Positions 6,166 through 26,200 of a DNA stretch of 26,262 bases are shown here, one piece after another. The DNA is from a virus. The stretch is taken from the IMG/VR virus record IMGVR_UViG_3300025283_000006, positions 1-26,262 of that record; one strand, written 5' to 3'. The position numbers were made by a program, and so were the translations under genes. Under the pieces are notes generated by a model. The model was given only the letters and a program-made list of their open reading frames with translations, was not told the DNA's origin and searched no databases. Every line of letters begins with the position of its first letter. The first letter of the stretch is position 1.

Positions 6166-8962
6166 TCATAAAACTTGAGCAGTCAATCGTCAGCACATCT
6201 GCCGGAGGCAGGTTCATGTGAGTGCCACGGCTCAAGCGCATCTTCTCTTTCTTCATATTGGTCGGTGCGGTTTTGAAAGAGTCAACCAGACCTGCATAGT
6301 TAATCTGATTTTTGGCGCACCAATCCTTGAGCGGCTTAGGCAGCAGGTACAAACGCTTAACGTCGTACTCATACCGCGCCACAAAGTTTATCCGTGGCAC
6401 CGCTTCAGGATGAATCAGATGATCAAGCCCAGTATTGCCTTTACGAGCATCATCCGTAGATTTAATGCGCAGGATGTTGTTATAGTTTTCGGCGAGATAG
6501 TCTGTTAGCAATGAGTTGGACTCGCTTGCCATCTCCTTGGACGCCGCCTTGGCCTCTTTAAGCATTTTGATCGCCCATTGAGCAATCGGCGCAATCTCCC
6601 AGTTAATTAGCCCCGCACGCTTGCCAACCATCAAACCTGTGATGATGCGCGATACAAGCGCCGACCAAAACCTGTTTTCAGCAGTCAATTCGGCAGCGGC
6701 GTCAATTTTCTTTTGATTGACATTGGCTAACTCTTTAATGGCTTCTAAGTTGTTGAGTACGTACTGGATGTAAACAATTCCGGCGTGAGCGTAATGCTCT
6801 TTGATAGCGTTGCTAAATTGATCAGTTTCATCTTTACTGTTGAAGTAGATGCGCGTGGCTTTATGCTCTAGTATGCGTTGAACTTCGGCTTCAGGCATGC
6901 GCTTGTACAGACCAATCCGCTCAATCAACCCAGCGTTACCCGAGGATCCAAACAAAATCTTCCAGGGTTTGCCACGGATGCGCTCTACGTTGCTCTTGCC
7001 AGACATCCGGTTGCGTTGCATTCCGCTAGGAAGTTGATAGGCCCAGTCTGATAGTTCTTGCGGTTTGGTGTTGGTCAACTCGTCCATGTAGCAGGGTAGA
7101 TTCTTGTAGATCTCAGCCCGGTTCATCTTAGAGTTAATCGTGTCACGCTCCTGAAGCATCAGCATGTCGGGGTCTCCCCAGACAGATGCACCTGCCAACA
7201 TCGCCGTGGTTTTGCCTAGACCGGAGTCCTTGCTGTACACGTGGAATGCCGCCGCATTGATTACTTGAAAGTGCATCAATGGAGAGCCCAACGACAACCC
7301 AAAAATAAACTGATGCAGTTCAAAGCCCGGACGGTTAAAGAACTCCATAGTTTGCTTCCACCCTTCAAACGTCCCTCGGGGCGTAAAATAAGGAAACAAC
7401 TGTGCTGTGGCAGTGGACGGAGAATTAACTTCAATTCGATCTTTAAAGATCTCCATGTTGCCCACGCAGAATGACGTGCCTGCTTCATTCGTCCAACCAA
7501 ACTGTCGCTGCGCTTCGGTTGCTTCAGCCTTGTATTGCAACTCGTTTACCCATCTCATGGTGTAGTCCATTAGTTCTGCTACGTTCAACACTGTCACACC
7601 CTGCATGGCAAGGTGTTTTCTAAAGTCATCCTTGGAGCCGACTGCCGTAAGTGGCAGCGTGAACTCCCGCACCCCGTCTCGTGGCAGATGCAGCCGCATG
7701 ACCAGAGCCTCACCCATGTCGAAATCTTTAAGCCGACGTACTACATACAGATCGTTGTGATAAACAAGTTTGTCTCTGGGCTCGTTATCTTCGTCATCAC
7801 CTTTCTTGTGCAAGAAGATGCCACCGGCCTTTCCACGGAAATACGGTTGTGGGTACTTAGGAATCGTGTACTGAATCGGTTTGGCTTGAGGAATGTCCAA
7901 GGATTTCTGAACAACAATGTTGTCCTCTTCCTTGGCTTCCAAAATCTCACGCCCCAGACTGATGGGTGACTTAATCTTGCCCCAGTGTGTGCAGTTGGGA
8001 CACACGCCCGGACGATAATCGTCAAACCTCTCGCACAGGTACGGTCCCTTGATCAACGCCGCCTTTTCTTCCGTAATATCGGTCGAATACTCGGGATGAT
8101 TTGATGAGATCCTATGGATGGCCTTGCCACCGTCTACGCAAAACTTGGCAATTGATAACCCTGCACGCCACATCGGTTCAGGTATGTTGGCCTGATTAAC
8201 AACAACTTCGTGCAGTTGGGCACACCCGTTACCTTCGGCGGTCTTGAGCAAGATAGTCTTAAATCGACTCGTATAACTGCCAGACAGCGCCTGCATCACC
8301 GAATCTTGTTCACGTGGTATGTACTTTTTAGATGCAGTCAGAACGTCGGTGTCATCCCCAAGCAAGTCTTTGAACGTGTCAAATTCCACAGGCACAGCCC
8401 AAGAACCCACAAGTAAGACGTCCTTGACAAGATCGTCTTTGTGATTGTGAGTACCCGGCATCCGCAGAACCCGTGCGGCATCAGCCGTCACGGCGGGGTC
8501 GCAGTGCAGATTATTTTGCTTGCAAGCACGCTTGAGCCGCTCAGCAACCGGTGTCCATGTTTCACGCGAAACCGGGCTGACCATTGGCCAGTAGGCGTGA
8601 ATGCCTCTACCACTGTTAACCACAGTCGGTCGTGGTAGGCTGAGTTGTTTACAGAATCGACGCAAGGCGTCGAGCGCCTGTGCTTGTGTTGGGTATTCTT
8701 TACCCGTACCGCAGTCCAGATCCAAAAAGAAAGAGCGCATCGCGGTGACATTGGGTGCTTTACGCGACCCAGCTTCCGCAAACGTGCCCAGTGCAAAGTA
8801 CGCATCAAACCCGTCGTCGTCCAGTTGACGGGCGGTGGTCACTACGGCATCAATGTTGTCGTAGAACTTCTGTACCTTACGACCATCGGAAATCCTCGCT
8901 GCATATACGCAGTAATACCCTCCATCGCCAAGGATGGTCTCCAAAAATGCTTTTGTGTCCAT
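6098..8962 (-). CDS. Primase-helicase (archaeo-eukaryotic primase plus DUF927-like ATPase)
   Basis: 954 aa. It probably synthesises primers and unwinds DNA at the phage fork. The N-terminal primase core shows the metal-binding DLD (81-83), SGRGIHAYW (117-125, the sxH-type motif) and ARVLRMPGTHNHK (163-175), as in archaeo-eukaryotic-type primases. A possible zinc site lies at C310, C321, C324 and H326. The C-terminal ATPase has Walker A SKDSGLGKTT (577-586), Walker B PCYMDE (623-628) and a sensor-like FGSSGN (671-676), resembling the DUF927 helicase group. The start ATG at 8962 has only a weak SD (GGCGG). It lies downstream of the putative ssDNA-binding gene across a stem-loop. The bifunctional architecture is clear; helicase polarity and primer type cannot be read. 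Confidence 0.88.
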   Translation of the reverse strand: MDTKAFLETILGDGGYYCVYAARISDGRKVQKFYDNIDAVVTTARQLDDDGFDAYFALGTFAEAGSRKAPNVTAMRSFFLDLDCGTGKEYPTQAQALDALRRFCKQLSLPRPTVVNSGRGIHAYWPMVSPVSRETWTPVAERLKRACKQNNLHCDPAVTADAARVLRMPGTHNHKDDLVKDVLLVGSWAVPVEFDTFKDLLGDDTDVLTASKKYIPREQDSVMQALSGSYTSRFKTILLKTAEGNGCAQLHEVVVNQANIPEPMWRAGLSIAKFCVDGGKAIHRISSNHPEYSTDITEEKAALIKGPYLCERFDDYRPGVCPNCTHWGKIKSPISLGREILEAKEEDNIVVQKSLDIPQAKPIQYTIPKYPQPYFRGKAGGIFLHKKGDDEDNEPRDKLVYHNDLYVVRRLKDFDMGEALVMRLHLPRDGVREFTLPLTAVGSKDDFRKHLAMQGVTVLNVAELMDYTMRWVNELQYKAEATEAQRQFGWTNEAGTSFCVGNMEIFKDRIEVNSPSTATAQLFPYFTPRGTFEGWKQTMEFFNRPGFELHQFIFGLSLGSPLMHFQVINAAAFHVYSKDSGLGKTTAMLAGASVWGDPDMLMLQERDTINSKMNRAEIYKNLPCYMDELTNTKPQELSDWAYQLPSGMQRNRMSGKSNVERIRGKPWKILFGSSGNAGLIERIGLYKRMPEAEVQRILEHKATRIYFNSKDETDQFSNAIKEHYAHAGIVYIQYVLNNLEAIKELANVNQKKIDAAAELTAENRFWSALVSRIITGLMVGKRAGLINWEIAPIAQWAIKMLKEAKAASKEMASESNSLLTDYLAENYNNILRIKSTDDARKGNTGLDHLIHPEAVPRINFVARYEYDVKRLYLLPKPLKDWCAKNQINYAGLVDSFKTAPTNMKKEKMRLSRGTHMNLPPADVLTIDCSSFMNDETEQSMATTAALLEKQAESR

Positions 8963-15693: not shown

Positions 15694-16485
15694 TTATTCA
15701 GGGATGGGATAAACCAACACCTCCGGGGTGTACAGCTTGGATGTGGGTTTGCCTTCGCAAAACAACTGAATGGCACGCTGAACCTTCTTCGTGGTTGTCA
15801 CACGCTCGCTACCCATCCATGCACCGCCACCTGTGGAAATCAAATACTCACGTAGTCGGATAGCGGCGTTCTCGTAATTACCCGTAATCTCACCACTGTA
15901 CATAATCTCGGCAAAACGCCTGATTTTTTCTCTAGGCTCACCGGCTTGTATCGCGCAGAAGTAAGACGCCACAATTCCAGAGTTGGTTAAGTTGCGCTTC
16001 TTTTTAGGAACCATAGTCATCACGCTACTCAAGTCGTCACCGTAACGCACGGCGTAGTCCACAATTTGAGGCACTGACCTGGGTAACGTGTTGTCGCCCA
16101 TGCGACCCAATACAAATCGCACCATTGCTACGATATTGCGATCAATCCAGTCAGGGCCACCGCCGATACGAATAGCGTCATGCGTGAGGCGCGGTGCGTT
16201 TTGATCAATTATTTGCCCAGCGTGTCGAGGAAGGCCATGTGTGATAACAAACTTCACAGGTATGTCAGCACGTATCACCGCATGCAGCCGATGCTGACCA
16301 TCAGCCAAGGTACCATCCTCGTAGAAAGCTAGGCCCTGATGAGTTGTTTCAAACCGACCATCCTTTATGTCCCGTGTGTACTTGGCAATAATCTCATCCC
16401 GTAGGTGACGATTGATGCTATTTTTTTTGAGCCACGTGCGTGCAGTGGCGGGAGTGACGTTAATAATGCTTATGTGCAGAGCCAT
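15694..16485 (-). CDS. DGQHR/ParB-like domain protein
   Basis: 263 aa. The segment LADGQHRLHAVI (60-71), following a ParB-N-like arrangement of helices (about 10-45) and AFYEDGT, places it with ParB/sulfiredoxin-fold phage proteins, some of which are nucleases or bind nucleotides. Gene context (polymerase, nucleases) suggests a DNA metabolism role; partitioning is not implied, as no ParA is seen. SD CTAGGAG lies 8 nt before ATG 16485. The C-terminal half (about 110-240) is helical and unrecognised. A repair-type or regulatory role would be a guess. Confidence 0.7.
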   Translation of the reverse strand: MALHISIINVTPATARTWLKKNSINRHLRDEIIAKYTRDIKDGRFETTHQGLAFYEDGTLADGQHRLHAVIRADIPVKFVITHGLPRHAGQIIDQNAPRLTHDAIRIGGGPDWIDRNIVAMVRFVLGRMGDNTLPRSVPQIVDYAVRYGDDLSSVMTMVPKKKRNLTNSGIVASYFCAIQAGEPREKIRRFAEIMYSGEITGNYENAAIRLREYLISTGGGAWMGSERVTTTKKVQRAIQLFCEGKPTSKLYTPEVLVYPIPE

Positions 16486-16775: not shown

Positions 16776-17065
16776 TCGTATCCTTTCAGTAGTTCGAGAA
16801 CTGTGTCTACGTTGTTTTCGTTAATCACCAGGGCAAAACCAACGGCCTTCTGGATGTCATCAAGATTTTTTTGTTGCATTGTTGTTGGTTTGTTACTACC
16901 TGCCTTGCACTCAATGCCAAAGAACCGGCCCTTGTAGCAACCCACAATGTCAGGCACTCCGCTCTTGCCATACCCGCCCGTGGCAGGGAAGAAGTAGTAA
17001 GCACCCATGGCCTTGAGTCGTGCAACAACAGCCTTCTTGACTTTGCTTTCAGGTGTCATTGCCAT
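16772..17065 (-). CDS. VRR-NUC domain nuclease
   Basis: 97 aa, a complete stand-alone VRR-NUC of the PD-(D/E)XK superfamily. Catalytic pattern: GVPDIVG (P38-D39), E52-C-K54 and Q64/Q65. Such phage nucleases are often near or fused to SNF2 helicases; here the SNF2 gene lies about 4.6 kb further down the same operon. They are thought to resolve or trim DNA junctions; activity is inferred. ATG 17065 overlaps the preceding gene by 10 bases. ATG at 17059, forming a 4-base ATGA overlap, is an alternative. Confidence 0.85.
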   Translation of the reverse strand: MAMTPESKVKKAVVARLKAMGAYYFFPATGGYGKSGVPDIVGCYKGRFFGIECKAGSNKPTTMQQKNLDDIQKAVGFALVINENNVDTVLELLKGYE

Positions 17066-17415
17066 GATGTAAACCACCCTTTCACACGTTGCGCCAAAGT
17101 TGGCTTGACATAGATGATGGATGCGTGCGCAGCGTGCACGTGTTGTGCCGGGGTGATCTGGATCACTGCCTTTTCTGGGGAACTACTATCTTCTTTGAGC
17201 AAAGCCTTGCGCGGACGACCACGCTTCTTCGGCGTAGCCTCGCGCAAAAGCGGCTTCCATCCGGGGCCGAGGGGCGCTGCCTTTTTCCTGTCTAGATACC
17301 GCACCGTGTGTACACGCTGCACATCACACTTGAGTCGGCGTGCAACCTCAAAAGGCTCGTAGCCCTTGTCCAACATGCGTCGGATCTTTGCGGCCAATGT
17401 CATTTTTTTAGCCAT
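17056..17415 (-). CDS. HTH plus AT-hook DNA-binding protein
   Basis: 119 aa. Residues about 7-42 form an HTH-like unit (IRRMLDKGYEPFEVARRL then QRVHTVRYLDR), followed by an AT-hook core KKRGRPRK (63-70). It probably binds AT-rich DNA; the iteron region at 24.7-25.2 kb would be a natural target, but that is speculation. The ATG at 17415 has GGGAGA 5 nt upstream. A longer frame to 17469 runs through the 17-bp palindrome and is rejected. The C-terminus (about 85-119) is unrecognised. It could regulate transcription or help replication. Confidence 0.75.
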   Translation of the reverse strand: MAKKMTLAAKIRRMLDKGYEPFEVARRLKCDVQRVHTVRYLDRKKAAPLGPGWKPLLREATPKKRGRPRKALLKEDSSSPEKAVIQITPAQHVHAAHASIIYVKPTLAQRVKGWFTSWQ

Positions 17416-17443
17416 CGTTTTCTCCCAGTTGTTTTCAAACCAA

Positions 17444-17460
17444 GTTAGGGAATCCCTAAC
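17444..17460. repeat. 17-bp palindrome, copy 1
   Basis: GTTAGGGAATCCCTAAC, with perfect 8-bp arms around one base. It is 5 nt after the stop of the 17466-17921 gene and 28 nt before the HTH/AT-hook ATG. Family described under findings. Confidence 0.95.
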
Positions 17461-17465
17461 ATTTG

Positions 17466-17921
17466 TCACGGACGTGACTCCTCCTCAGAGGTGCACTTCG
17501 GGCTGTAGACCCAAAAGACACCCGCCGATATGCGACGCCCGACATCCGCAACATGCGGCGTCGGCTTGATCCGGTGATCAACCATCATCAGTATGGCAAG
17601 ACGCTCCTGTACCCAGTTGGGTAGAGCATCGACACCATCGTAATCGCCTTCGCGGATGTCGTCAATATCTGGAAACGCAAAACACAGGACGTTTACTGAC
17701 CCATCCTGATTCAACGTGACACGAAATGTTTCTGTATCTGGTCGTGCGGGTAGATCGAGATCATCCTCTGCCATGTGCGCGGTGTATCCACGTGAGTAAG
17801 CGAACGCTGCACCACACTCAATCAGATCTACCACCTTGTATAACTCCTTGGACAACTCACCTACGCTGTTTTGCAGTGCACCGAGTTTGACGCTCAAGTC
17901 ACGGATGTGTACGCTTGTCAT
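17466..17921 (-). CDS. Unknown phage protein, coupled to the upstream gene
   Basis: 151 aa. An N-terminal helix/coiled coil (about 8-35) is followed by an acidic middle and a short beta-rich C-terminus. No motif was recognised. The ATG at 17921 overlaps the stop of the 353-aa gene as TGATG, and no good SD exists, so it is probably translated by coupling and likely works with that protein. GTG at 17924 is an alternative start. Its C-terminus (DVGRRISAGVFWVYS) resembles the C-terminus of the 353-aa partner (DVGTRVSDVGMRATETTFYV), possibly an old partial duplication. Confidence 0.7.
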   Translation of the reverse strand: MTSVHIRDLSVKLGALQNSVGELSKELYKVVDLIECGAAFAYSRGYTAHMAEDDLDLPARPDTETFRVTLNQDGSVNVLCFAFPDIDDIREGDYDGVDALPNWVQERLAILMMVDHRIKPTPHVADVGRRISAGVFWVYSPKCTSEEESRP

Positions 17922-18982
17922 CACACGCGCTCTACGTAAAAGGTTGTCTCAGTTGCACGCATGCCAACATCGGACACACGGGTGCCCACGTCCACCATGG
18001 ACAGCACAGCCATCTTCCCGGTCAACTCCTCGGGCATGGTTTCGGCAGTGAAAGTCTGAGGGTCGTGCATCACGGGCGGCGACTTGTGTACGTCGAACAT
18101 CTCAATAACATTAAAGTGTTGTACGTCCTTACGTGTTAGCACAGTGACGAACCACCCATGGCGGACTTTTGATATGTGTTCTTTCTGCATGACCCGGGCA
18201 CCCACGTACGCCTGCACTTGCTGCTTCAATTCGACAGACAGAAACTCATGCCCACTTTCTAGCAGGTGCACCAACTCCCTCATCAAGTCCGTGTTTTTAC
18301 GAACCTCCGATACGGTGTTGTGTACTGCGACGTTAAAGTTTGCTGTCTCATTCTGAACTGCGCTTGTGAAAAAATCGAGCTTTACCTGCGCAGTCTCTTG
18401 CGGTGCGTAGGGGCGCATCACCGACCTGGCGTTTTTGACAGCGCGGCCCACGTCGGCAGACATCAACATGCAGTGCTGCGCGTTATCGGTGTTGTATTTG
18501 CGGTTTTGGATCAGGCGTGAATAGATGCCATAGGTCGGATCGTCACTGGCGTGGGCCGTGGTGGCGTAATTTTTGTACCCAATGCGCATCAGGGCATACG
18601 GCTGCTCAGGCAAATAGACCCACAACTCACACAGCAGGGAGTAGCTGCCGCTACTACCAAACATAGCGCCGTCTGGATTGCTCTTCACCACAGTTATACG
18701 ACGGCTGGCGCAGTCCTGCCGCATACCGAACTTGATGCGGTGATTGGCCGCACGCAACTCATCACACAGCAGGGCCAGCTTGGGCTCCACAGGGATGCCG
18801 TCATACCTCGCCGCATGGAAAAAGATATCGCGGTCTGAGATGTCAGTTTTGATTAAACGGATGCGCTTCACCTCTTCCTGCAACCTGCGCAGGTATTTCT
18901 CCGTGTCGCTTTGAATGTAATCGACCTGCGCTGCGGAATGTTTGAAGATGGGATTGAATTTGATGGTGGCAAGAATGCCCAT
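17921..18982 (-). CDS. Unknown 353-aa phage protein
   Basis: 353 aa with mixed alpha/beta content. No Walker, nuclease or HTH motif was recognised. A helical segment about 215-275 (EVRKNTDLMRELVHLLESG, ELKQQVQAYVG) could be a coiled coil. CTAGGAGA lies 7-8 nt before ATG 18982, and a 17-bp palindrome lies just before that. It sits after the ATPase/VWA/DUF3150 set and could belong to that module, but this is inference only. Confidence 0.75.
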   Translation of the reverse strand: MGILATIKFNPIFKHSAAQVDYIQSDTEKYLRRLQEEVKRIRLIKTDISDRDIFFHAARYDGIPVEPKLALLCDELRAANHRIKFGMRQDCASRRITVVKSNPDGAMFGSSGSYSLLCELWVYLPEQPYALMRIGYKNYATTAHASDDPTYGIYSRLIQNRKYNTDNAQHCMLMSADVGRAVKNARSVMRPYAPQETAQVKLDFFTSAVQNETANFNVAVHNTVSEVRKNTDLMRELVHLLESGHEFLSVELKQQVQAYVGARVMQKEHISKVRHGWFVTVLTRKDVQHFNVIEMFDVHKSPPVMHDPQTFTAETMPEELTGKMAVLSMVDVGTRVSDVGMRATETTFYVERV

Positions 18983-18998
18983 GATCTTCTCCTAGTTT

Positions 18999-19015
18999 GT
19001 TAGGGATTCCCTAAC
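18999..19015. repeat. 17-bp palindrome, copy 2
   Basis: GTTAGGGATTCCCTAAC, 16 nt upstream of the ATG at 18982, immediately before the SD. Confidence 0.95.
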
Positions 19016-19022
19016 TCGTTGC

Positions 19023-19046
19023 GTTGTTGAGTTGTTGAGTTGTTGG
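19023..19046. repeat. Tandem 8-bp repeat GTTGTTGA x3
   Basis: Two perfect units and one GTTGTTGG unit, 8 nt right of palindrome copy 2, in the leader of the 353-aa gene. Such short tandem repeats can arise by slippage and change leader length. Confidence 0.7.
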
Positions 19047-19139
19047 GTTGGGGGGACAGGTAGATTCCACGCCCCCCTCGCGGTTGGAGGGCGGTGCAAA
19101 GTGTTTGGCTTACTGCCAGGGCTAGGTACACCGTGCACC

Positions 19140-19180
19140 GTCACGACAGGGTTGCATCTACCGGGCGCTGCTGTCGTGAC
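19140..19180. other. 10-bp inverted repeat in the 19016-19196 intergenic region
   Basis: GTCACGACAG and CTGTCGTGAC are perfect 10-bp arms separated by 21 bases. The 181-bp gap around it holds no convincing gene: a 63-codon frame ending at 18992 runs through the tandem repeat and palindrome. The inverted repeat could be a regulator site or a leader hairpin; no U-tract follows. Confidence 0.5.
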
Positions 19181-19196
19181 CATGAATCACCTAGCC

Positions 19197-20441
19197 TCAG
19201 TCTTTGACGTGCACCGTGGTACCCACGGGTGCCGTGTCGTTGTTTGCACCGACAATGCACCACAGTACCGGGCAAGGCCACGTGCCCCATGACCCGCCGA
19301 GATACCCGTCAGTCAAGACCACCACAGCTTGCGGCTTCACACCGTACTCAGCCATGTAACTTGTTACACATTCCACGCTCGTACCACCTCCGCCCGCAGG
19401 CTTGGTTGATTGCACGATGTTGTCCACCTCACTGTCCACGTACGTCTCGTCACGGCACACACGGGTATCCCAGTACAGCAGGCGCACCTTGTCGGGCTTG
19501 ACCGTATCGCAGATGCCCTTGACCTCACCGAGGAACTGAGACAACTCTTGTGCACCGATAGAGCCTGACGTGTCAATGGCAAGCACCAACTCGCCGACCT
19601 TCTCGCTCACACCTGATGGCATGTAGATACCCGAGGACACAAACCTGCGGTTGGGTCGCTTCCATGTTGAGAACTCATTGCCTGCGCACGTGGTCGTCAC
19701 GAACTCACGCAGCACCTCACGCCAGTCAATTTTGGTCTTGAGCAATTCTTCCAAGTCGCGCAAGCCACCGGATCCCAACTTACCTGCGGCCAACACACCC
19801 TGACGCACGGCCTCGTCGATGTCACGCCCCAACTCTTTCTTCTCTTCGTCGCTCATGCTCTGCGCACCCTCCCAGTCGTGGGAGTCGAGACCACCGTCCA
19901 TGTTGCCCTCACCCTCACCGGGGCGACCTGCGCCGCCCCCACTCTCACCCTCACATTGCCCATCCTCGTTCTGCGGCTGCTCAGGCATGGCGTGATACAC
20001 CTGAGCCGTGTCCATACCCACGTACTGTTGGTCGATCACGCCGATGGGTTTGCCTGTCTTTTTATCTTTAGGCATGACAGCAAAGCCGTCCGCGTTCTCG
20101 GCGGTGATCTTCAAGTTGATCACATGGTCACAGGCGATGTTGGCCTTGCGTGCGTTGGCGTCATACAGATGTTTCCACGTGGTCAGGTGGCGATAGAGCT
20201 TGTGATAGCACTCGTGCAGCACGACGAAGCGCAACTCTGCATCGTTGAGTGAGTCCACAAACGCACGGCCATACTTTTCATCTCTCCCGTTGGTGCATGC
20301 GGTCGGGATCTTGTCCGACACGGTGCGGTTGCCGAGCATGAGGATGCCTGCCAGTGCCACGTACTTGGGGTTGCCGATGATGTCAATGACTGCCTTTTGC
20401 AGTCGCTGTTCAGCGGTCAGTTGTTTGCCGATCATGAGCAT
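19197..20441 (-). CDS. DUF2201-like metallopeptidase/VWA protein
   Basis: 414 aa. The N-terminal half carries a zinc-protease motif H76-E-C-Y-H80, with ACDHVINL (103-110) as a second conserved region. An acidic Gly/Glu linker (155-190) follows. The C-terminal half is a von Willebrand A-like domain with MIDAS residues D290-T-S-G-S, T354 (GGGTS) and D378 (TDG). This is the architecture of VWA-like metallopeptidases encoded with MoxR ATPases, here at 20584-21681. It could be an ATPase-driven chaperone or protease acting on host or phage complexes; the substrate is unknown. ATG 20441 has AAGGA upstream; the gene follows a 40-aa gene. Confidence 0.85.
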   Translation of the reverse strand: MLMIGKQLTAEQRLQKAVIDIIGNPKYVALAGILMLGNRTVSDKIPTACTNGRDEKYGRAFVDSLNDAELRFVVLHECYHKLYRHLTTWKHLYDANARKANIACDHVINLKITAENADGFAVMPKDKKTGKPIGVIDQQYVGMDTAQVYHAMPEQPQNEDGQCEGESGGGAGRPGEGEGNMDGGLDSHDWEGAQSMSDEEKKELGRDIDEAVRQGVLAAGKLGSGGLRDLEELLKTKIDWREVLREFVTTTCAGNEFSTWKRPNRRFVSSGIYMPSGVSEKVGELVLAIDTSGSIGAQELSQFLGEVKGICDTVKPDKVRLLYWDTRVCRDETYVDSEVDNIVQSTKPAGGGGTSVECVTSYMAEYGVKPQAVVVLTDGYLGGSWGTWPCPVLWCIVGANNDTAPVGTTVHVKD

Positions 20442-20450
20442 GATGTTTCC

Positions 20451-20573
20451 TTATTTAATTTGCCATGTGATGCGGTCGTTGATTGCACGTCGCCGTTGCC
20501 AGTACGGCAGGGCGTACGGTACGTTTGTCTCTATGCAAATCAAGCGACCCTTCAAAAACACATACATGTGCAT
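20451..20573 (-). CDS. 40-aa protein between ATPase and VWA genes
   Basis: Short basic, aromatic protein (MHMYVFLKGRLICIETNV, then PYWQRRRAINDRITWQIK). GGAGAG lies before ATG 20573 and it fills the gap between two partner genes with 10-base spacing on both sides, so it is probably translated. No motif was recognised; a small adaptor of the module is a guess. Confidence 0.65.
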   Translation of the reverse strand: MHMYVFLKGRLICIETNVPYALPYWQRRRAINDRITWQIK

Positions 20574-20583
20574 TGCTCTCTCC

Positions 20584-21681
20584 TTACTTCTTATCAGCCG
20601 TGAACATGTAGTTGTTGGCCATGGCCCACTGCGTGAACTTCTTGTTGGTCATCACAGCCTTCTGCTTGTCGGCAGGGAACTTGTTGCCACGCACGCCATT
20701 GGCGAACATGCCTTGAGCTTCCTTGTCGAGTCTTTGCATGTAGTCCATCCACGGATCCATCCAAGTCGCGTCGATGATGGAAAGGGTGCGATACACCACC
20801 ATGCACACAGCAGCGGGGCTGTCGGGCACCTTGGCATGGAGCGGATCCTTCTTGAGGTCGTCGAGCTTTGGCAGTTGATCCGCTAACTTTACGTGTGCTG
20901 TCAGATCCATGGCGCCACGCTCACCCACCGTGCCCATGAGTAAACCTGTTAGGGTCTGATCGTCGTACTGATCGCGCACCTTGAGCCAGTCGCTTGCCGC
21001 TTCCAACGAACGGGGCGTGACGAAGGCAGCGCGTTGCTGCTTGGGGTGATAGATATACGGGTTGTCGTCCGGGTTGGGCACGTCGTCGAATGACTGGAAC
21101 AGTTGCGGGTTGTCCTTGCACCATCCGAGCAACGTGTGATCGATGCCGTTGGCGATACCCCACTCGATCCACTCCAAGTTGGTCGGCTTGCGTGAGGTGA
21201 CAATCGACATGCGGTTGCGTGCATGCGGTGGCAGCAGGTCACCCACACCCTCGGCCCCAAGGTTGGTCGTGGCAAACACGATGCTGTCCTCGTGGAGGGT
21301 GTAAGAACCCATCTTGCGTTCAAGCATGAGTCGCAGCATGGCGTTCTTCACACTTGGATTAGCCTTGCCGTACTCGTCCACCATCAGGAGAATGGGCTTG
21401 CCCAGGTGCACGCCGAGTTCCTCGTTGGTCACGTAACGCACGCACCCTTGGTTGTCGATGGTCTGCAACTGCGGGATGGTGATGTCCCCTAAATCCTTGG
21501 TAGTGCAATCGAAATAGCACATCGTGTGTTTCGGCAGCAGCTTGCCCAGGGCTTTCAGCAGAGATGACTTGCCCGTACCCATGTGTCCCTGCATGAGGAC
21601 GGTTCGCTTGTTACCACCGGCCAGGATGGCAGCGGTGATCTGATCGAGGGACAGGGCGTAGAGAGAAGTTGCGGTTGTCAT
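20584..21681 (-). CDS. MoxR-like AAA+ ATPase
   Basis: 365 aa. Walker A GHMGTGKSS (32-40), Walker B ILLMVDE (97-103), sensor 1 FATTN (136-140) and arginine region ARNR (154-157) identify a AAA+ ATPase of the MoxR/dynein-related type. Such ATPases remodel proteins together with VWA partners, and the VWA gene is two genes downstream. ATG 21681 is chosen because CTAGGA precedes it; a GTG at 21741 would add a QPS repeat encoded by the tandem 9-bp repeat and is rejected. The C-terminal domain (about 220-365) is unrecognised. Confidence 0.88.
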   Translation of the reverse strand: MTTATSLYALSLDQITAAILAGGNKRTVLMQGHMGTGKSSLLKALGKLLPKHTMCYFDCTTKDLGDITIPQLQTIDNQGCVRYVTNEELGVHLGKPILLMVDEYGKANPSVKNAMLRLMLERKMGSYTLHEDSIVFATTNLGAEGVGDLLPPHARNRMSIVTSRKPTNLEWIEWGIANGIDHTLLGWCKDNPQLFQSFDDVPNPDDNPYIYHPKQQRAAFVTPRSLEAASDWLKVRDQYDDQTLTGLLMGTVGERGAMDLTAHVKLADQLPKLDDLKKDPLHAKVPDSPAAVCMVVYRTLSIIDATWMDPWMDYMQRLDKEAQGMFANGVRGNKFPADKQKAVMTNKKFTQWAMANNYMFTADKK

Positions 21682-21697
21682 GGTCGTTTTTCCTAGT

Positions 21698-21733
21698 GAT
21701 GGTTGTGATGGTTGTGATGGTTGTGATGGTTGT
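21698..21733. repeat. Tandem 9-bp repeat GATGGTTGT x4
   Basis: Four perfect units in the leader of the ATPase gene, directly upstream of its SD. As the unit length is a multiple of three it stays in frame (QPS repeats) if an upstream GTG were used. It is prone to copy-number change by slippage. Confidence 0.9.
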
Positions 21734-21772
21734 TTCAACACTTACTTCTAAAATTGATGCCAGGGTTGCGTG

Positions 21773-21789
21773 GTTAGGGACTCCCTAAC
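21773..21789. repeat. 17-bp palindrome, copy 3
   Basis: GTTAGGGACTCCCTAAC (C in the centre), 3 nt after the stop of the DUF3150-like gene and 91 nt before the ATPase ATG. Confidence 0.95.
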
Positions 21790-21792
21790 TTG

Positions 21793-22719
21793 TTACCACC
21801 CCAGTCCCAGACTGTCGATGGTCTTGCGCACTGCGTCCATCTGCTGCTTGGTTTGTGATCGCAGGTACGCATCCTCACGCAGGGCCTCGGGTGTCACGCC
21901 CTCAAGCGCCTGCTCTAGGTCGGCGGCTGCCTTGGTCATGGTCGGGTCGCTCGTGACGTTGAAGTCGTTGAGCATGACCACCATGTCCTTGACGTTGCTG
22001 ACCAGAGAGTCGCGGAATATCTTCTTGTTGGTGTCGTCGCCGTAGTCCAGCCGCTCACTCATCTTGCTGATCGCCTCGTAGGTGCGCTGCCACACATCAC
22101 CCATGGCGGTCTTGAGTTGATCGCTGTAGAACTTCTCATACTGACCGCGCAGTGCCTCGGCTGCCTCGTTGCCCACGTCCAGCCGCCAGTCGCCTGCCTC
22201 GGGCACGGGCATGGCTGCAAACCGGAAGCGGAACTTGTTACGCAGTGTTTCGGCTGTTGGGTACTCGTCGGCGTTGAACAGGGAGCCGAGCTTGAGTTGG
22301 GCGTTCTGGATCTCCCAGTCGTACGCTTGCAGGAAGTTGTCAGTCAGACGGAAGAACTCCTGCTGCAAGGCGCTCATCTCCTTCTCGTACCCGGCGCGGG
22401 TCTCGTTGCCCAGGTATGCACGGGTCGTGCACAGGCGCAGTCCCAGGTCTGACCAGGGTGTGGTCATGGCGTAGTGGATGTTGCGTGCGTTGGCTGCAAA
22501 CTTCTGCACTGCATCCAGTTCGGCGCAGTCGCCAAGGAGCTTCTTCGATACGTTGGCCACGCCCTTGGCGGCGTTGTTCTGGTTAACAACTTCCTGTGAG
22601 GCTCGCTTGTCGAGCTTTCGTCCCGTCCACGTGGAGATGGACAGGTCAATCAGCACCGCTGAGGATGCGATGGACGGGGCCGAGAAGATCGGCGCTGTGG
22701 TGGTCATGTGGATCTGCAT
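21793..22719 (-). CDS. DUF3150-like protein of the ATPase/VWA module
   Basis: 308 aa, mostly helical. The N-terminus VLIDLSISTWTGRKLDKRAS (22-41), followed by long helices with charged and Gln residues, resembles DUF3150, a family found beside MoxR ATPases and VWA proteins in phages; this assignment is from memory. Function is unknown; it may be the substrate or scaffold of the ATPase. AAGGAG lies before ATG 22719. A 17-bp palindrome lies 17 nt upstream, and another after its stop. Confidence 0.7.
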   Translation of the reverse strand: MQIHMTTTAPIFSAPSIASSAVLIDLSISTWTGRKLDKRASQEVVNQNNAAKGVANVSKKLLGDCAELDAVQKFAANARNIHYAMTTPWSDLGLRLCTTRAYLGNETRAGYEKEMSALQQEFFRLTDNFLQAYDWEIQNAQLKLGSLFNADEYPTAETLRNKFRFRFAAMPVPEAGDWRLDVGNEAAEALRGQYEKFYSDQLKTAMGDVWQRTYEAISKMSERLDYGDDTNKKIFRDSLVSNVKDMVVMLNDFNVTSDPTMTKAAADLEQALEGVTPEALREDAYLRSQTKQQMDAVRKTIDSLGLGW

Positions 22720-22736
22720 GGTTCTCTCCTTGAGTT

Positions 22737-22753
22737 GTTAGGGAATCCCTAAC
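22737..22753. repeat. 17-bp palindrome, copy 4
   Basis: GTTAGGGAATCCCTAAC, 17 nt before ATG 22719. It overlaps the TAG stop of the 75-aa gene, so that gene ends inside the element. Confidence 0.95.
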
Positions 22754-22976
22754 TGGGTTGATGTTTACTCTGCACTGCCCCGTCCAACAAGCCTTCGGCT
22801 TGAAGTCGCACTTCAAGGGCATAAAGGAAATCGTTAAGCACCTTTGGGCATTCGTCGCTTTCGCGCTGAATGCCGTTCACGAATAACATCGTGCTCATGG
22901 ACTCTACAAAATAGAGCGCATCTTCTGCGCTGCCATGAAAGCCAAGAAATTTTTCGGTCACACTCATAGGTTTCAT
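22749..22976 (-). CDS. 75-aa early protein, unknown
   Basis: Acidic and mostly helical, with no motif recognised (MSVTEKFLGF, then LNDFLYALEVRLQAEGLL). AAGGA lies before ATG 22976. It is the first gene after the promoter at 23098-23126, behind a highly palindromic leader, so it is a likely regulated early gene. The stop codon lies within palindrome copy 4. Confidence 0.7.
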   Translation of the reverse strand: MKPMSVTEKFLGFHGSAEDALYFVESMSTMLFVNGIQRESDECPKVLNDFLYALEVRLQAEGLLDGAVQSKHQPS

Positions 22977-23005
22977 GATTTGTTCCTTTCTAAGGTGATG
23001 GGAAA

Positions 23006-23088
23006 GACCGACACTTGTCGGTCATTTGACTTGAATACCGTGCTGGAACCCAAACCCAGGCCTGGGTTGTCGGGTCGCTTTCTGACCC
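23006..23088. promoter_or_regulatory. Leader with three palindromes
   Basis: Between the promoter at 23098-23126 and ATG 22976 lie GACCGACACTTGTCGGTC (23006-23023, 8-bp arms), the perfect 16-bp palindrome AACCCAGGCCTGGGTT (23053-23068), and GGGTC...GACCC (23072-23088). They may be operators for a dimeric regulator or stem-loops of the leader RNA. None is followed by a U-tract. Confidence 0.6.
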
Positions 23089-23097
23089 AACACCTAT

Positions 23098-23126
23098 AGT
23101 CTATCACAGAACAATACAAAAGTCAA
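23098..23126 (-). promoter_or_regulatory. Leftward sigma70-type promoter
   Basis: On the - strand TTGACT (23121-23126), a 17-bp spacer and TAGACT (23098-23103). The -10 is preceded by TTCTGTGA and the -35 by CGC, both shared with the promoter at 24667-24695. It would drive the 75-aa gene, DUF3150, ATPase and VWA genes and possibly more. Confidence 0.75.
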
Positions 23127-23153
23127 GCGTTGTGTAGTTGAGTTGACTATCTG

Positions 23154-23270
23154 TCACCACGGCCTCCAAACAAGCAGGTCTAGTAATAATATCACAATCG
23201 CAAACAGATAGACAATTAGCCACGTGAGCATGCTCACGCCTGCTTCAATACGTTCTTCGGTCTTGCTCAC
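23154..23270 (-). CDS. 38-aa single-pass membrane protein
   Basis: A short charged N-terminus (SKTEERIEAG) is followed by one hydrophobic helix (about residues 15-34; LTWLIVYLFAIVILLLDLLV) and a WRPW end. The GTG at 23270 has GGAGG 7 nt upstream, which decides the start. It is the last gene before the promoter at 23098-23126. Function is unknown; membrane-active phage early peptides are one possibility. Confidence 0.75.
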   Translation of the reverse strand: MSKTEERIEAGVSMLTWLIVYLFAIVILLLDLLVWRPW

Positions 23271-23288
23271 TTGTTGTCCTCCAGTTGT

Positions 23289-23663
23289 TCAATCAAAAAA
23301 GTATCCGTTCAGATACTCACCTCGGGCGGCGAGTCCTGCGGTGCCCCAGTCCGCGATGGTGCGCATGGCCCCGGCTGTCATGGGCAGTATGTTGGCTTCT
23401 AAGGGGTGTGACTGGTTGCGATGTTTAGATGTGGTGACGCTGTACTTACCTGTGTTCTCGTACCACTGCACCTTGCCGTCCTCGGGCAACCACTCTGCGA
23501 TAAACAGGGGCCAGTGAGAGCCATATGAGTAGACGACGTAGCGATGAGTGTGGCAATTACCACACGCGAGATAGATACGGGCAAACAAGTTATTACCATC
23601 GAAGGGCTCTCGGCGTTGTATGTACTGGCGTGCGTTGGCGTTTGCTGTAATGATGGGTTTCAT
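23289..23663 (-). CDS. Unknown phage protein with CxxCH site
   Basis: 124 aa. C34-x2-C37-H38 and H40 may bind zinc. RYVVYSYGSHWPLFIAEW (41-58) and QWYENTGKYSVTTSKH give a beta-rich fold typical of small conserved phage proteins. AAAGGA lies before ATG 23663. No enzyme motif was seen; a regulator or anti-host role is possible but unsupported. Confidence 0.75.
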   Translation of the reverse strand: MKPIITANANARQYIQRREPFDGNNLFARIYLACGNCHTHRYVVYSYGSHWPLFIAEWLPEDGKVQWYENTGKYSVTTSKHRNQSHPLEANILPMTAGAMRTIADWGTAGLAARGEYLNGYFFD

Positions 23664-23679
23664 GGTTTTCCTTTGTTGT

Positions 23680-23931
23680 TTAGATCATGCCGCACCGAGG
23701 GCACGAGGGCCAACAGCCGGGATACTCTGGTTCTGGCGGTTCGGTGCAGCCGCAGACACACCTGTACTGGGGCTTTTCTTGGACGAACTCAACCGTCCAC
23801 TCGCCGTAGCTGTGGGTGTAGTCGCTTTCCAACTCCTTCCACGCTTTGTCTTCAGCCTCCTCGGGTGAGTTAGCCTCCACTGTGTAGAGGACATAGCTTT
23901 CACGTTTTAACTCCACTTCGTACTTTTTCAT
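23680..23931 (-). CDS. Small Cys-rich early protein
   Basis: 83 aa. The N-terminal part (YEVELKRESYVLYTVEANS, EEAEDKAW) has the beta-alpha pattern of small phage proteins. The C-terminus has C58, C60, C62, C73, C77 and C80, likely a zinc site. GGAGAG lies before ATG 23931, and ATGA overlaps the previous gene. Function is unknown. Confidence 0.75.
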   Translation of the reverse strand: MKKYEVELKRESYVLYTVEANSPEEAEDKAWKELESDYTHSYGEWTVEFVQEKPQYRCVCGCTEPPEPEYPGCWPSCPRCGMI

Positions 23932-24119
23932 TTCGTCTCTCCTTTCATCAGGTCTTTCTCTTCAAACACATCCCTGTAGAAGATGCGTGCGTAGTTGCGG
24001 TCAGGACTTTCGTCAGGAAACTCTTGACGCGCATAAATTTCTGCGGCCATCTTGGTGCTGAACAATATGGGCATGGGCAAGTCAGCGTCTGCGCCCTGTA
24101 CATACCAAACTTCTTTCAT
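23928..24119 (-). CDS. 63-aa early protein, unknown
   Basis: Acidic small protein (MKEVWYVQGADADLPMPILF, then YARIFYRDVFEEKDL), with a beta-helix pattern; no motif recognised. AAGGAG lies 6 nt before ATG 24119. It overlaps the next gene as ATGA, and palindrome copy 5 lies 15 nt upstream. Confidence 0.7.
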   Translation of the reverse strand: MKEVWYVQGADADLPMPILFSTKMAAEIYARQEFPDESPDRNYARIFYRDVFEEKDLMKGETK

Positions 24120-24134
24120 TTCTTCTCCTTTGTT

Positions 24135-24151
24135 GTTAGGGAATCCCTAAC
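24135..24151. repeat. 17-bp palindrome, copy 5
   Basis: GTTAGGGAATCCCTAAC, 3 nt after the stop of the 76-aa gene and 15 nt before ATG 24119. Confidence 0.95.
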
Positions 24152-24154
24152 TTG

Positions 24155-24385
24155 TTACCTTACGCTCTTCACGTTGATGCCCACGGCAGCTTCACGTGCG
24201 TACTCGGCGGTGAAGAACATGGCACCTTGCTTGTGGGGTGTGAGTACGCACCAACTTCTGCGCTCCTCACGGGCGGCATCCTCGCCGCACATCAGGCAGA
24301 TGGTGTAACCGGCATCGCGTCGGCCAGGGGAGAACGTGTCTCCGCACCGGGTGCAGATGGGTTTGATCTTGCGGGTTTTGCGCAT
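24155..24385 (-). CDS. Small zinc-finger early protein
   Basis: 76 aa. C11-x2-C14 and C30-x2-C33 form a zinc ribbon with a basic surround (MRKTRKIK, GRRDAG), so nucleic-acid or protein binding is likely. AAGGAG lies before ATG 24385; it is the second gene after the promoter at 24667-24695. The C-terminal part is unrecognised. Confidence 0.75.
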   Translation of the reverse strand: MRKTRKIKPICTRCGDTFSPGRRDAGYTICLMCGEDAAREERRSWCVLTPHKQGAMFFTAEYAREAAVGINVKSVR

Positions 24386-24397
24386 GGTGGATTCTCC

Positions 24398-24544
24398 TTA
24401 GTAGTCGTAGCGGCGCAGCGTCAAGCGGTGACTGATCTCGCGCCCCCAGTCATAGGCTTCTTGCAGGGTGCGGTCGGCGTAATGAGTGGTACAGGAGAAG
24501 CGAAACTCTCGCACGCCGTTCAGGAAGGCTAGGATGGTTTTCAT
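24398..24544 (-). CDS. 48-aa first gene of the early operon
   Basis: MKTILAFLNGVREFRFSC, then CTTHYADRTLQEAYDWG and a basic LTLRRYDY end. AAGGA lies 7 nt before ATG 24544. It is the first gene after the promoter at 24667-24695, with palindrome copy 6 just upstream of the SD. No motif was recognised. Confidence 0.7.
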   Translation of the reverse strand: MKTILAFLNGVREFRFSCTTHYADRTLQEAYDWGREISHRLTLRRYDY

Positions 24545-24567
24545 GGTGTGATCCTTTCACGTGTTGA

Positions 24568-24584
24568 GTTAGGGAATCCCTAAC
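24568..24584. repeat. 17-bp palindrome, copy 6
   Basis: GTTAGGGAATCCCTAAC, 23 nt before ATG 24544, inside the transcribed leader about 80 nt downstream of the promoter -10. Confidence 0.95.
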
Positions 24585-24666
24585 CGGCAGGGCGACATTG
24601 CCCGAAGTCAGCGGGTAAACCCTGTGATGCAACATACTGCATACAATACCCAACTGACTAAGTGTC

Positions 24667-24695
24667 AGTATATCACAGAATTTATCGAATGTCAA
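24667..24695 (-). promoter_or_regulatory. Strong leftward sigma70-type promoter
   Basis: On the - strand TTGACA (24690-24695), a 17-bp spacer and TATACT (24667-24672): perfect -35 and near-perfect -10. TTCTGTGA before the -10 and CGC before the -35 are shared with the 23098-23126 promoter. It would start the early operon at 24544. Confidence 0.88.
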
Positions 24696-25131
24696 GCGTT
24701 AGTAAAGTTTGTTAGTAGATTGTGTTGTAAATATAATGTTCGTGAACTGTTCTGGATGGGGGGGTTGCAAGTGCTTGATTTGTAAAAAAAGTTCGAAAGT
24801 AGATTTGTAGGGGCAAAAAAAGGGGGTGTCTAAACTTTTTAGCGCAAACGTGAAAAAAGCGAACAGTGCGGTGTTCGTCTTCAAAGCATCGGGAAAAAAT
24901 TTTTCGGAGACCCCTCCTTCTTTTTAAAAAACGAACAGTATGATTACTATTACTTTTAGATAGGATATTGCAAAATTTCATAGGCAAAATCTAACACTTC
25001 TGAGTAGATGCCGAAGCCACAGCATATAAAACTATAATGTACGCACGCATGCGAACAGTATGGGGTATTGTTCGAACATTTGCCGCTACTGTATGAAAAT
25101 TCAACACGTGTTAAGTGTTTAGCCACGTGTT

Positions 25132-25225
25132 AAAAACGAACAGTTCAATGCGGCTAAAAACGAACAGTCGAACAAAACCAAAAACGAACAGTCGAACACG
25201 ACGCTTTCAGAACAGTTCGAACAGT
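25132..25225 (+). repeat. Iteron-like direct repeats, 24-bp period
   Basis: AAAAACGAACAGT at 25132-25144, 25156-25168 and 25180-25192, then GAACAGT at 25210-25216, all exactly 24 bp apart, plus GAACAGT at 25219-25225. CGAACA half-copies at 25169 and 25193 keep the same 24-bp spacing. The last copy runs into palindrome copy 7. Confidence 0.9.
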
Positions 25226-25240
25226 TAGGGATTCCCTAAC
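25224..25240. repeat. 17-bp palindrome, copy 7
   Basis: GTTAGGGATTCCCTAAC, sharing two bases with the last iteron-like motif. There is no gene directly downstream, unlike most other copies. Confidence 0.95.
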
Positions 25241-25250
25241 GCTGCGTGGC

Positions 25251-25283
25251 GCGGGGCTCGCCGCTGCTGCGGCACTACTATCA
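25251..25283. repeat. Imperfect 33/34-bp direct repeat, left copy
   Basis: Shares GGGGCTCGCCGCTGCT and ACTACTATCA with the copy at 25382-25415. The stretch 25241-25486 holds no gene; it contains this repeat pair, a decayed palindrome and a terminator. Confidence 0.8.
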
Positions 25284-25301
25284 CAGGGCTTACCCGCATG
25301 A

Positions 25302-25318
25302 GTTAAGTATTCCCTAAC
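25302..25318. repeat. Decayed 17-bp palindrome, copy 8
   Basis: GTTAAGTATTCCCTAAC: one arm is intact, the other has two changes. It lies between the two 33/34-bp repeats. Confidence 0.7.
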
Positions 25319-25381
25319 TTGTTTTGCTGTGTGTGATCTCGTGACAGTACTGGTATGGTAGGCATACCGCACGCCGCATGC

Positions 25382-25415
25382 GCGGGGGCTCGCCGCTGCT
25401 TGGGTACTACTATCA
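25382..25415. repeat. Imperfect 33/34-bp direct repeat, right copy
   Basis: Partner of 25251-25283, 131 bases away, with differences only between the GCTGCT and ACTACTATCA blocks and one extra G. Confidence 0.8.
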
Positions 25416-25451
25416 AACCCTCCAACGGATTGGAGGGTGCAAATTCAAGAC

Positions 25452-25479
25452 AAAAAAAAGCCCCGGCTTTCGCCGGGGC
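25452..25479 (-). terminator. Rho-independent terminator of the 189-aa gene
   Basis: On the - strand GCCCCGGC, loop GAAA, GCCGGGGC, then a run of eight T. It is 8 bases after the gene's stop codon. It isolates this gene from the origin-like region. Confidence 0.92.
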
Positions 25480-25486
25480 CATGGGG

Positions 25487-26056
25487 TTACTTGTCAGCCG
25501 GTGCCGTGATACGTGCTACAGCCGATTCAAGGTCCTTGATAAAGGCCGGAAGGTCCTTCACCGATGCACCCTCGGCCTTTTGGGCCTGGGCGATCACAGT
25601 GCTTAGGGTCTTGCGCCACTGCGCGGCTTTGTCACCCGTGGAACCCTCACCTTCGCCCTCGGCCTTAGCCTCAGCCTCAGCAAGTCGGCGCTCCAGGCCC
25701 TTGCGGTAGTCCTTGATCTTGCTGGCGATCTGCTGCTGCCAATACTTGCGGTTCTCGCGGCACTTGCTGTCCCGGTTCAGCTTGGCCTGATCCTCGCCCA
25801 CTGTCTTAAGGGCCTTGGCCTCACCCGTGAGCATGGCCTGGGCCGCTGCACTGAAACCCGCCACAACGGCGTGGCACACCGAATCGTAGAAGGTACGGTC
25901 GGCACCCTTGGTAGGGGCCACGAGCATTTCCGGGGTGATGCCCTCAGCCTGCATCACGTCCAGGGTCTTACCGCGCGTTTTGCCTCTCTTTACGTCCACT
26001 TGGACGTCACTGGTGATAGCGGAAGCAACCGCGCTAGAGATTACATTGGTTTTCAT
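25487..26056 (-). CDS. Unknown 189-aa phage protein with coiled coil
   Basis: 189 aa. A basic segment (VDVKRGKTRGK), a helical core and a Lys/Glu-rich coiled coil (about 105-140; YRKGLERRLAEAEAKAEGEG) are seen, with a helical C-terminus. No catalytic motif was recognised. AAAGGG lies 6 nt before ATG 26056. It is monocistronic, with its own terminator and a long leader containing an inverted repeat and palindrome copy 9. It may be a strongly expressed early protein, but its function is unknown. Confidence 0.75.
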   Translation of the reverse strand: MKTNVISSAVASAITSDVQVDVKRGKTRGKTLDVMQAEGITPEMLVAPTKGADRTFYDSVCHAVVAGFSAAAQAMLTGEAKALKTVGEDQAKLNRDSKCRENRKYWQQQIASKIKDYRKGLERRLAEAEAKAEGEGEGSTGDKAAQWRKTLSTVIAQAQKAEGASVKDLPAFIKDLESAVARITAPADK

Positions 26057-26079
26057 GGTATGCCCTTTCTAGACATAAT

Positions 26080-26109
26080 CGGCACACAATCAATATGTTG
26101 TGTGAACCG
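26080..26109. promoter_or_regulatory. Inverted repeat in the leader of the 189-aa gene
   Basis: CACACAA (26083-26089) and TTGTGTG (26098-26104) around 8 bases, extended by CGG/CCG with an AA bulge. It is 23 nt upstream of ATG 26056, so it may be an operator or an RNA hairpin that limits translation. A possible weak promoter (TTGCGT, 17 bp, TACAGT) lies further upstream. Confidence 0.5.
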
Positions 26110-26183
26110 ATGAGTAGACTGTAAGACGTTATGACGTGATACGCAAGGGAAACGCACGGCCTGACACAATCCGATAGGTTCAG

Positions 26184-26200
26184 GTTAGGGATTCCCTAAC
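26184..26200. repeat. 17-bp palindrome, copy 9
   Basis: GTTAGGGATTCCCTAAC, 127 nt upstream of ATG 26056. No gene is visible from 26057 to the window end. Confidence 0.95.

Follow-up and report, generated by a model that had tools for sequence, protein, structure and literature searches.

What purpose does a perfect 17-base palindrome serve when it recurs at one gene junction after another in a phage genome? The element is found in the IMG/VR virus record IMGVR_UViG_3300025283_000006, a fragment of an uncultured phage genome that we analyzed in its entirety (26262 bases, hereafter the window). The window carries eight perfect copies of GTTAGGGA-N-TCCCTAAC and one decayed copy, each of 17 bases and each at the position reported in an earlier note made from the letters of the window. 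When up to three mismatches were allowed, 0.06 copies (standard deviation 0.24) were expected by chance against the nine found, and none of 100 dinucleotide shuffles reached nine. Here we show that the palindrome is replaced in a concerted manner between related phages and that its sequence covaries with residues of a single phage protein, o189 (25487-26056, minus strand; 189 amino acids). From the sequence comparisons, the palindrome is very probably a symmetric double-stranded DNA operator, and o189 is likely its reader.

The copies have a characteristic placement. Perfect copies are located between o152 and o127 (17444-17460), upstream of o353 (18999-19015), between o308 and moxR (21773-21789), upstream of o308 (22737-22753), between o76 and o63 (24135-24151), in what is presumably the early-operon leader, ahead of a 48-amino-acid open reading frame (ORF, 24544-24398; the copy at 24568-24584), in the non-coding region downstream of o189 (25224-25240) and 128 nt upstream of the o189 start (26184-26200), while the decayed copy (25302-25318) has two uncompensated mismatches in one arm. 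As the earlier note had stated, there is no copy to the left of 17444. Viewed in the direction of the genes, the palindrome comes after one gene's stop codon and before the next Shine-Dalgarno (SD) sequence. Several copies were said to begin 0-5 nt after the previous stop, and we measured 3, 3 and 5 nt at 21773, 24135 and 17444, respectively, with the 22737 copy itself providing the stop codon (TAG) of the preceding ORF. Likewise, five copies were said to end 15-28 nt before a start codon, and the distance from the element to the ATG on the minus (gene) strand is 28, 16, 17, 15 and 23 nt at 17444, 18999, 22737, 24135 and 24568. Copies in the window are followed by an A-rich SD region. The remaining copies are placed differently: the one at 21773 is separated from the probable moxR start codon by ~90 nt, and those at 25224, 25302 and 26184 are in the non-coding stretches around o189 and not next to an SD. 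The promoters were also correctly described as not overlapping the element: the best promoter-like site of the early operon (24667-24695, minus strand; TTGACA-17-TATACT with an extended -10) is clear of palindromes and has its start point ~75 nt upstream of the 24568 copy. Only the 17444 copy resembles an intrinsic terminator (11 found versus 9.5 expected in shuffles), and the element had no match in Rfam.

An exact scan of IMG/VR found the palindrome in 103 stretches, many of them with 3-9 copies, and 257 Gb of bacterial and archaeal genomes contained only 10 hits, all single and unrelated. Phages with several copies share synteny with the window, with identities of 65-77% for the DNA polymerase, 67-82% for SNF2 and 45-80% for MoxR. 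Although their GC content ranges from 0.40 to 0.57, almost every copy matches the palindrome to the letter. Alignment of MoxR identified relatives in at least 523 IMG/VR stretches, 80 of which were fetched; genomes of this family are syntenic and ~59-66 kb long. Inverted repeats were then counted de novo in each relative. At these same junctions, almost every one had a dispersed palindrome of its own, in 2-11 copies that were uniform within the phage and differed between phages. The operator types comprised GTTAGGGA-N or -NN, GTTAGTG-N3, GTTAGTCC-NN, GTTAGGCG/A-N, GTTAGTCG-N, GTTATACG-N, GTTATCCA-N, TCTAGTCG-N, CCTTACA-N, CCTGACC-NN and TTTACGGAATTCCGTAAA. Thus, syntenic junctions in relatives carry either the element or another palindrome in its place. 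Furthermore, copies were strongly depleted inside conserved genes (32 observed versus 317 expected). Neither outcome that the earlier note had named as refuting its view, absence from syntenic positions in relatives or an equal density across coding DNA, was observed.

The replacement is best seen in G016 and L064, two phages that are near-identical around the sites but read '...aagcctcggcttctaa (GTTATACGCCGTATAAC) aact' and '...aagcctcggcttctaa (GTTAGGGACTCCCTAAC) aact', respectively, with the palindrome in parentheses. Similarly, the same 3' end of o308 ('...cctcggcttctaa') is followed by GTTATACGCCGTATAAC in G016 and by GTTAGGGACTCCCTAAC in L064. The similarity of o189 between these two phages is 0.14, whereas their distance at other genes is 0.07. 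Such concerted replacement of the operator is expected of a site that is read by a phage-encoded trans-acting factor. We also observed one short contig (L055, 5282 bases) on which GTTAGGCA-type and GTTAGGGA-type palindromes are mixed, and whose o189 is identical to that of the GTTAGGGA phages L070 and L081; this contig is possibly an intermediate of an operator switch.

To find the reader, operator class was compared with every conserved protein by a partial Mantel test from which the trend in MoxR similarity had been removed. The best correlations were those of terS (0.346) and of the adjacent o189 (0.342), and vwa, o308, the HTH_17 gene and o127 fell short of significance (o127: partial r 0.16, p 0.095). 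G001 and G016 have different operators but almost the same terS, and their o189 proteins are completely different. We further performed a paired test, in which 23 disjoint pairs of phages with different operators were compared with 25 same-operator pairs over 2357 columns of 15 proteins. Residues 117, 116 and 112 of o189 took ranks 1-3 of all columns (p 1e-7 to 8e-7, uncorrected), and residue 116 differed in 15 of the 23 different-operator pairs and in none of the 25 same-operator pairs. The three residues remained significant, with smaller numbers, when only pairs with diverged o189 (identity up to 45%) were considered. A mutual-information ranking also placed o189 column 116 first of 3162; as many portal and TerL columns with small sample sizes ranked high in it, a sign of phylogenetic noise, the paired test was preferred. 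o189 was present in 48 of 48 contigs spanning the locus from TerS to MoxR, no o189-bearing phage without palindromes was found, and the long contigs without o189 (G020, G024 and G028) end in or beside the locus. Altogether, there is strong circumstantial evidence from sequence that o189 is the regulator. In some phages, two o189 paralogues lie side by side together with one operator type (6544-7065 and 7401-7925 in L216; 5836-6438 and 7444-7992 in L207).

Other candidates were tried and rejected. The recognition helix of o127 (KCKPQAVYNIRY) is the same whether the operator is of the GTTAGGGA or the GTTATACG type, covariation supported neither o127 nor the HTH_17 protein, and the columns of MoxR, VWA, DUF3150, polA and others ranked below those of o189 in the paired test. 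A host-encoded reader is not favored because the site is not multi-copy anywhere in the 257 Gb of cellular genomes.

The covariation could be resolved to individual bases. In the discovery set, Asp116 occurred with G at base 7 of the half-site in 34 of 34 cases and Lys116 or Arg116 with C at base 7 in 9 of 9; among the C7 phages, Arg116 was found with GGC and Lys116 with GTC or TAC. In addition, Ser112 accompanied GGG operators and Ala112 accompanied GTG operators. This second rule was evaluated on 43 non-identical contigs outside the discovery set, 39 of which were scorable: Ser112 predicted G6 in 21 of 21 and Ala112 predicted T6 in 18 of 18 (39/39), although these counts overstate the number of events because related phages are not independent. 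One held-out phage, L263, has an o189 close to that of the window except for an Ala112/Asn115 pair, and its operator is GTTAGTG. Residues 112, 115, 116 and 117 appear, from covariation, to contact bases 5-7 of each half-site. As dozens of phages carry different regulator/operator pairs, the recognition code is partly readable from sequence.

Searches of Pfam, PHROGs and the sequences in PDB returned nothing for the o189 of the window, and neither it nor 85 homologues matched the CI/HTH_3 family among the listed Pfam and PHROG families. The AlphaFold model of o189 is all-helical (predicted local distance difference test score, pLDDT, 89.9) and places residues 112-117 (S K I K D Y; codons at 25706-25723, minus strand), the predicted specificity residues, in a 35-residue helix spanning residues 100-134; a homologue from a phage with the GTTATACG-type operator was modeled with a very similar order of helices (pLDDT 85.7). 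VIA-align gave a best Z of 6.1, for the C-terminal helices only, which is within the chance range for helical proteins. o189 thus seems to represent a previously undescribed protein family, while the Foldseek and VIA-align searches do not prove its fold to be new. An intrinsic terminator (GGCCCCGGCGAAAGCCGGGGCT followed by T8; 25459-25480, minus strand) lies directly 3' of o189, and one is present behind the gene in 24 of 53 phages, the window included; o189 therefore appears to be its own transcription unit. An operator copy lies upstream of o189 in 42 of 45 relatives, and in 23 of 42 relatives this copy precedes the gene's promoter-like site (13% in shuffled sequence).

How would o189 act from these sites? 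The distribution of sigma70-like start points has its maximum 40-50 nt upstream of the palindromes, and that of exact AGGAG motifs 0-20 nt downstream of them. As the copies are placed ahead of ribosome-binding sites, lie mostly away from promoters and flank o189, repression by blockage together with autoregulation of o189 seems the most likely mode. We infer that o189, probably as a homodimer, reads the palindrome as duplex DNA, with Ser112 or Ala112 paired with G or T at base 6, and Asp116 or Lys/Arg116 with G or C at base 7. From its sites at one gene start after another, beyond the promoters, it would block elongation (or access) at many places, such that the early/ATPase operon would be repressed or damped and o189 would regulate itself. 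The chances that such road-block repression, as proposed for stoperators (PMC6550527, PMC9283540), is the actual mode of action are about even. Two roles would fit the diversification of specificity, namely damping of the early genes after their time and exclusion of related phages. A lysogeny repressor is not an obvious role, as no tyrosine integrase was found in 10 relatives and no serine resolvase in 8, mostly ~60 kb long. A search for a T7-like RNA polymerase (PF00940) had no match in 10 phages, and its control search was likewise without any match, which makes this negative uninformative.

In our assessment, a DNA operator that is read by o189 and mediates a dispersed block on the early operon, together with autoregulation, is the best explanation as a whole, with a probability of roughly 0.75. 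The earlier note had proposed either a phage-specific operator for early and ATPase-module genes or an RNA hairpin, and our results favor and sharpen the former by adding a candidate reader and a specificity that differs between phages. Nevertheless, several observations weigh against this explanation. terS correlates with operator class as well as o189 does. G027 and L208, which have two o189 genes, combine Ala112 and Ser115 with a GGG operator and so break the code; the register of their arms was misjudged by one base, and they stand outside the code counts. The phages are related and all counts phylogenetically non-independent, so that the paired test is the stricter statement. No DNA-binding domain is recognizable in o189, with sub-threshold helix-turn-helix (HTH) matches (PF23336) in two members only, although the predicted helical protein may contain an unusual HTH, and Foldseek returned no match with E below 1 in PDB or BFVD. 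Moreover, in 22 of 82 phages the length of the centre varies between copies by 1-2 nt, shifts that a rigid operator-bound dimer would not tolerate, and the centre shows some asymmetry in window-type phages, with C exceeding G on the gene strand (22 versus 4). The regulator may also be an activator or have a DNA-organizing role.

The mixed centre lengths and the asymmetry of the centre would suit an mRNA hairpin of 7 bp with a 3-nt loop that precedes the SD and acts on translation, processing or mRNA stability, o189 being perhaps an RNA-binding protein. Loops are 3, 4 or 5 nt long, with more than one length in some phages, the hairpin is predicted right before the SD, and its folds in context reach -9.2 and -10.6 kcal/mol at two sites. 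However, what stays constant within a phage is the sequence of the arms and not merely their pairing, none of 12 imperfect copies was compensated, and the predicted energy ranges from -7.7 to -3.6 kcal/mol across operator types, a spread of ~4 kcal/mol. Of 215 GTTAGGG-N3 copies, 204 have a symmetric A and T on either side of the centre, where pairing in RNA would be impossible, a copy precedes the o189 promoter-like site in many relatives, and the pairing of Asp, Lys or Arg116 with G or C at base 7 suits reading of the DNA major groove. A hairpin is therefore very unlikely. That the palindrome is an operator with another reader (o127, the terS-like gene next to o189, or a host factor), o189 merely hitch-hiking, is quite unlikely: o127 combines an HTH-like motif with an operator copy ahead of its own gene, and terS shares the high partial correlation, but the o127 helix and the G001/G016 pair argue against these two, the lack of bacterial genomes with a multi-copy site argues against a host factor, and the strongest column-level signal falls in one helix of o189.

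If the sites instead served DNA maintenance (partition, replication, packaging or recombination), their position at gene starts would be a mere consequence of being intergenic. Their symmetric form does resemble parS-like or iteron sites, and copies cluster at one genome end around a non-coding region with other repeats. Yet they extend over ~9 kb at successive gene starts with the SD enriched 0-20 nt downstream, keep their position before the same genes, and are absent from the structural half of long contigs, which makes a maintenance function highly improbable. An activator, or a switch from early to late expression, is more conceivable but still unlikely. The copy upstream of o189 lies ~70-80 nt before a promoter-like start in several relatives, a distance from which activators can act; most copies, however, are downstream of promoters or far from any, and sigma70-like starts peak upstream of the palindromes.

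Among known systems, the operator/o189 pair most resembles, in its presumed working, the stoperators of cluster A mycobacteriophages (L5, Bxb1, TipsytheTRex), whose site consensus and Rep protein diverge together between relatives (PMC6550527). Both have many dispersed intergenic sites, mostly outside promoters, for one phage protein, here a putative one. However, the 13-bp stoperators lack symmetry, follow the direction of transcription and bind an HTH monomer, with a block of elongation proposed (PMC9283540). Such systems give superinfection immunity and belong to temperate phages. The sites described here are 17-18 bp perfect palindromes confined to the early operon, their putative reader has no recognizable HTH and no integrase was found. 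Since the site is symmetric and the protein not recognizably related, the system would not be a member of that group; of the parallels drawn in the earlier note, L5 stoperators thus came closest, in arrangement but not in symmetry. The start-associated sequences (SAS) of cluster K mycobacteriophages and their extended counterparts (ESAS) are short repeats a few nt before the starts of non-structural genes and are conserved in relatives; SAS (GGGATAGGAGCCC) are asymmetric, contain the SD and lie 3-7 nt from the start, while ESAS are inverted repeats of 17 bp, imperfect and with a spacer that varies (PMC3203893). The likeness to SAS is positional only, as the palindrome is symmetric, lies upstream of a separate SD and varies between phages together with a protein.

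In temperate phages, CI of the lambda type binds 17-bp dyad-symmetric operators, a few helix residues set its specificity, and similar phages are heteroimmune. The palindrome shares this dyad symmetry, and its half-site bases 6-7 covary with residues 112, 116 and 117 of one predicted helix; CI operators, on the other hand, are few and lie within promoters, o189 has no similarity to CI or HTH proteins, and no lysogeny genes were detected in the tests made. P1 C1 likewise has many dispersed operators for one phage protein, but these operators are asymmetric and P1 is temperate. The cultured relatives of the window phage are only distantly related to it: DNA polymerase identity is 36.6% for Rhizobium phage RHph_TM3_14A and 34% for Pseudomonas phage KPP25. 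KPP25 has no dispersed palindrome. RHph_TM3_14A (L219/L220) shares the ATPase/metallopeptidase/SNF2 gene set and has its own repeated palindrome, TTACC-N5/6-GGTAA, in 34 copies that often directly follow stop codons; in contrast to the window, these copies span the whole genome including late genes and their inner bases are more variable. No o189 homologue was found in this phage. Literature searches on KPP25 promoters, palindromes upstream of early-gene starts, MoxR/VWA phages and RHph_TM3_14A returned nothing on the element, nor any report of the RHph_TM3_14A palindrome.

The minus-strand genes extend from 6.1 kb to the right end of the window, in the order DUF927 primase-like, MerR/HTH_17 protein, SNF2 helicase, family-A DNA polymerase, VRR-NUC-like, o127, o152, o353, VWA gene, MoxR ATPase, o308, small genes and o189. 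Operator copies precede o127 (17056-17439; HTH-like, not favored as the reader), o353 (17921-18982; conserved, without assigned function), the MoxR-like AAA ATPase (20584-21741; phrog_1297) and the DUF3150 protein o308 (21793-22719), and the VWA/metallopeptidase-like partner gene (19197-20441; phrog_1314) is syntenic with moxR in the family; all of these are on the minus strand. o127 is syntenic in the family and has an AT-hook-like RGRPRK and a conserved C-terminal LWQRVKGWF; its helix differs among clades, not in step with the operator. o152 (17466-17924) and o353 are adjacent and appear to be related, as either one as an iterative query recovers ~130 proteins in 65 contigs. o263 (15694-16485) has a DGQHRL motif reminiscent of ParB-like proteins and occurs in only 4 of 90 contigs searched.

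Other repeats were also observed. A 9-bp tandem repeat, GTGATGGTT, is located at 21696-21731, in the stretch that separates the 21773 palindrome from the probable start codon of moxR. A 45-nt element, GGCTCGCCGCTGCT..CACTACTATCA, is present in two copies that are 80% alike (25239-25283 and 25371-25415); in relatives a similar-looking element with GATACCAGTTCC and GAAGCGGCGGCGAG lies between o189 and the early operon, often beside a palindrome, and GATACCAGTTCC is common to 21 contigs. Finally, 25131-25202 contains three direct repeats of ~24 nt (TAAAAACGAACAGT...), and in relatives the corresponding non-coding region contains GTTCGTAATGTTC / GAACATTAGAACATT repeats; these are possibly iterons or a second protein-binding array.

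The analysis provides a functional hypothesis for an undescribed protein family and for repeated intergenic palindromes in at least 523 IMG/VR stretches of uncultured phages. The comparison of G016 with L064, near-identical phages whose operator sets are replaced entirely, poses an evolutionary puzzle, namely how numerous dispersed sites come to change together with one gene. More tentatively, apparently lytic phages may carry an immunity-like regulator/operator pair that is swapped as a set while the intervening genes stay nearly identical; o189 would then be a DNA-binding family that is unrelated to known repressors and has a readable residue-to-base code. The early operon of related superinfecting phages would then be shut down without lysogeny, and if the pair does act in superinfection, it would define diversifying 'immunity groups' in phages without lysogeny genes.

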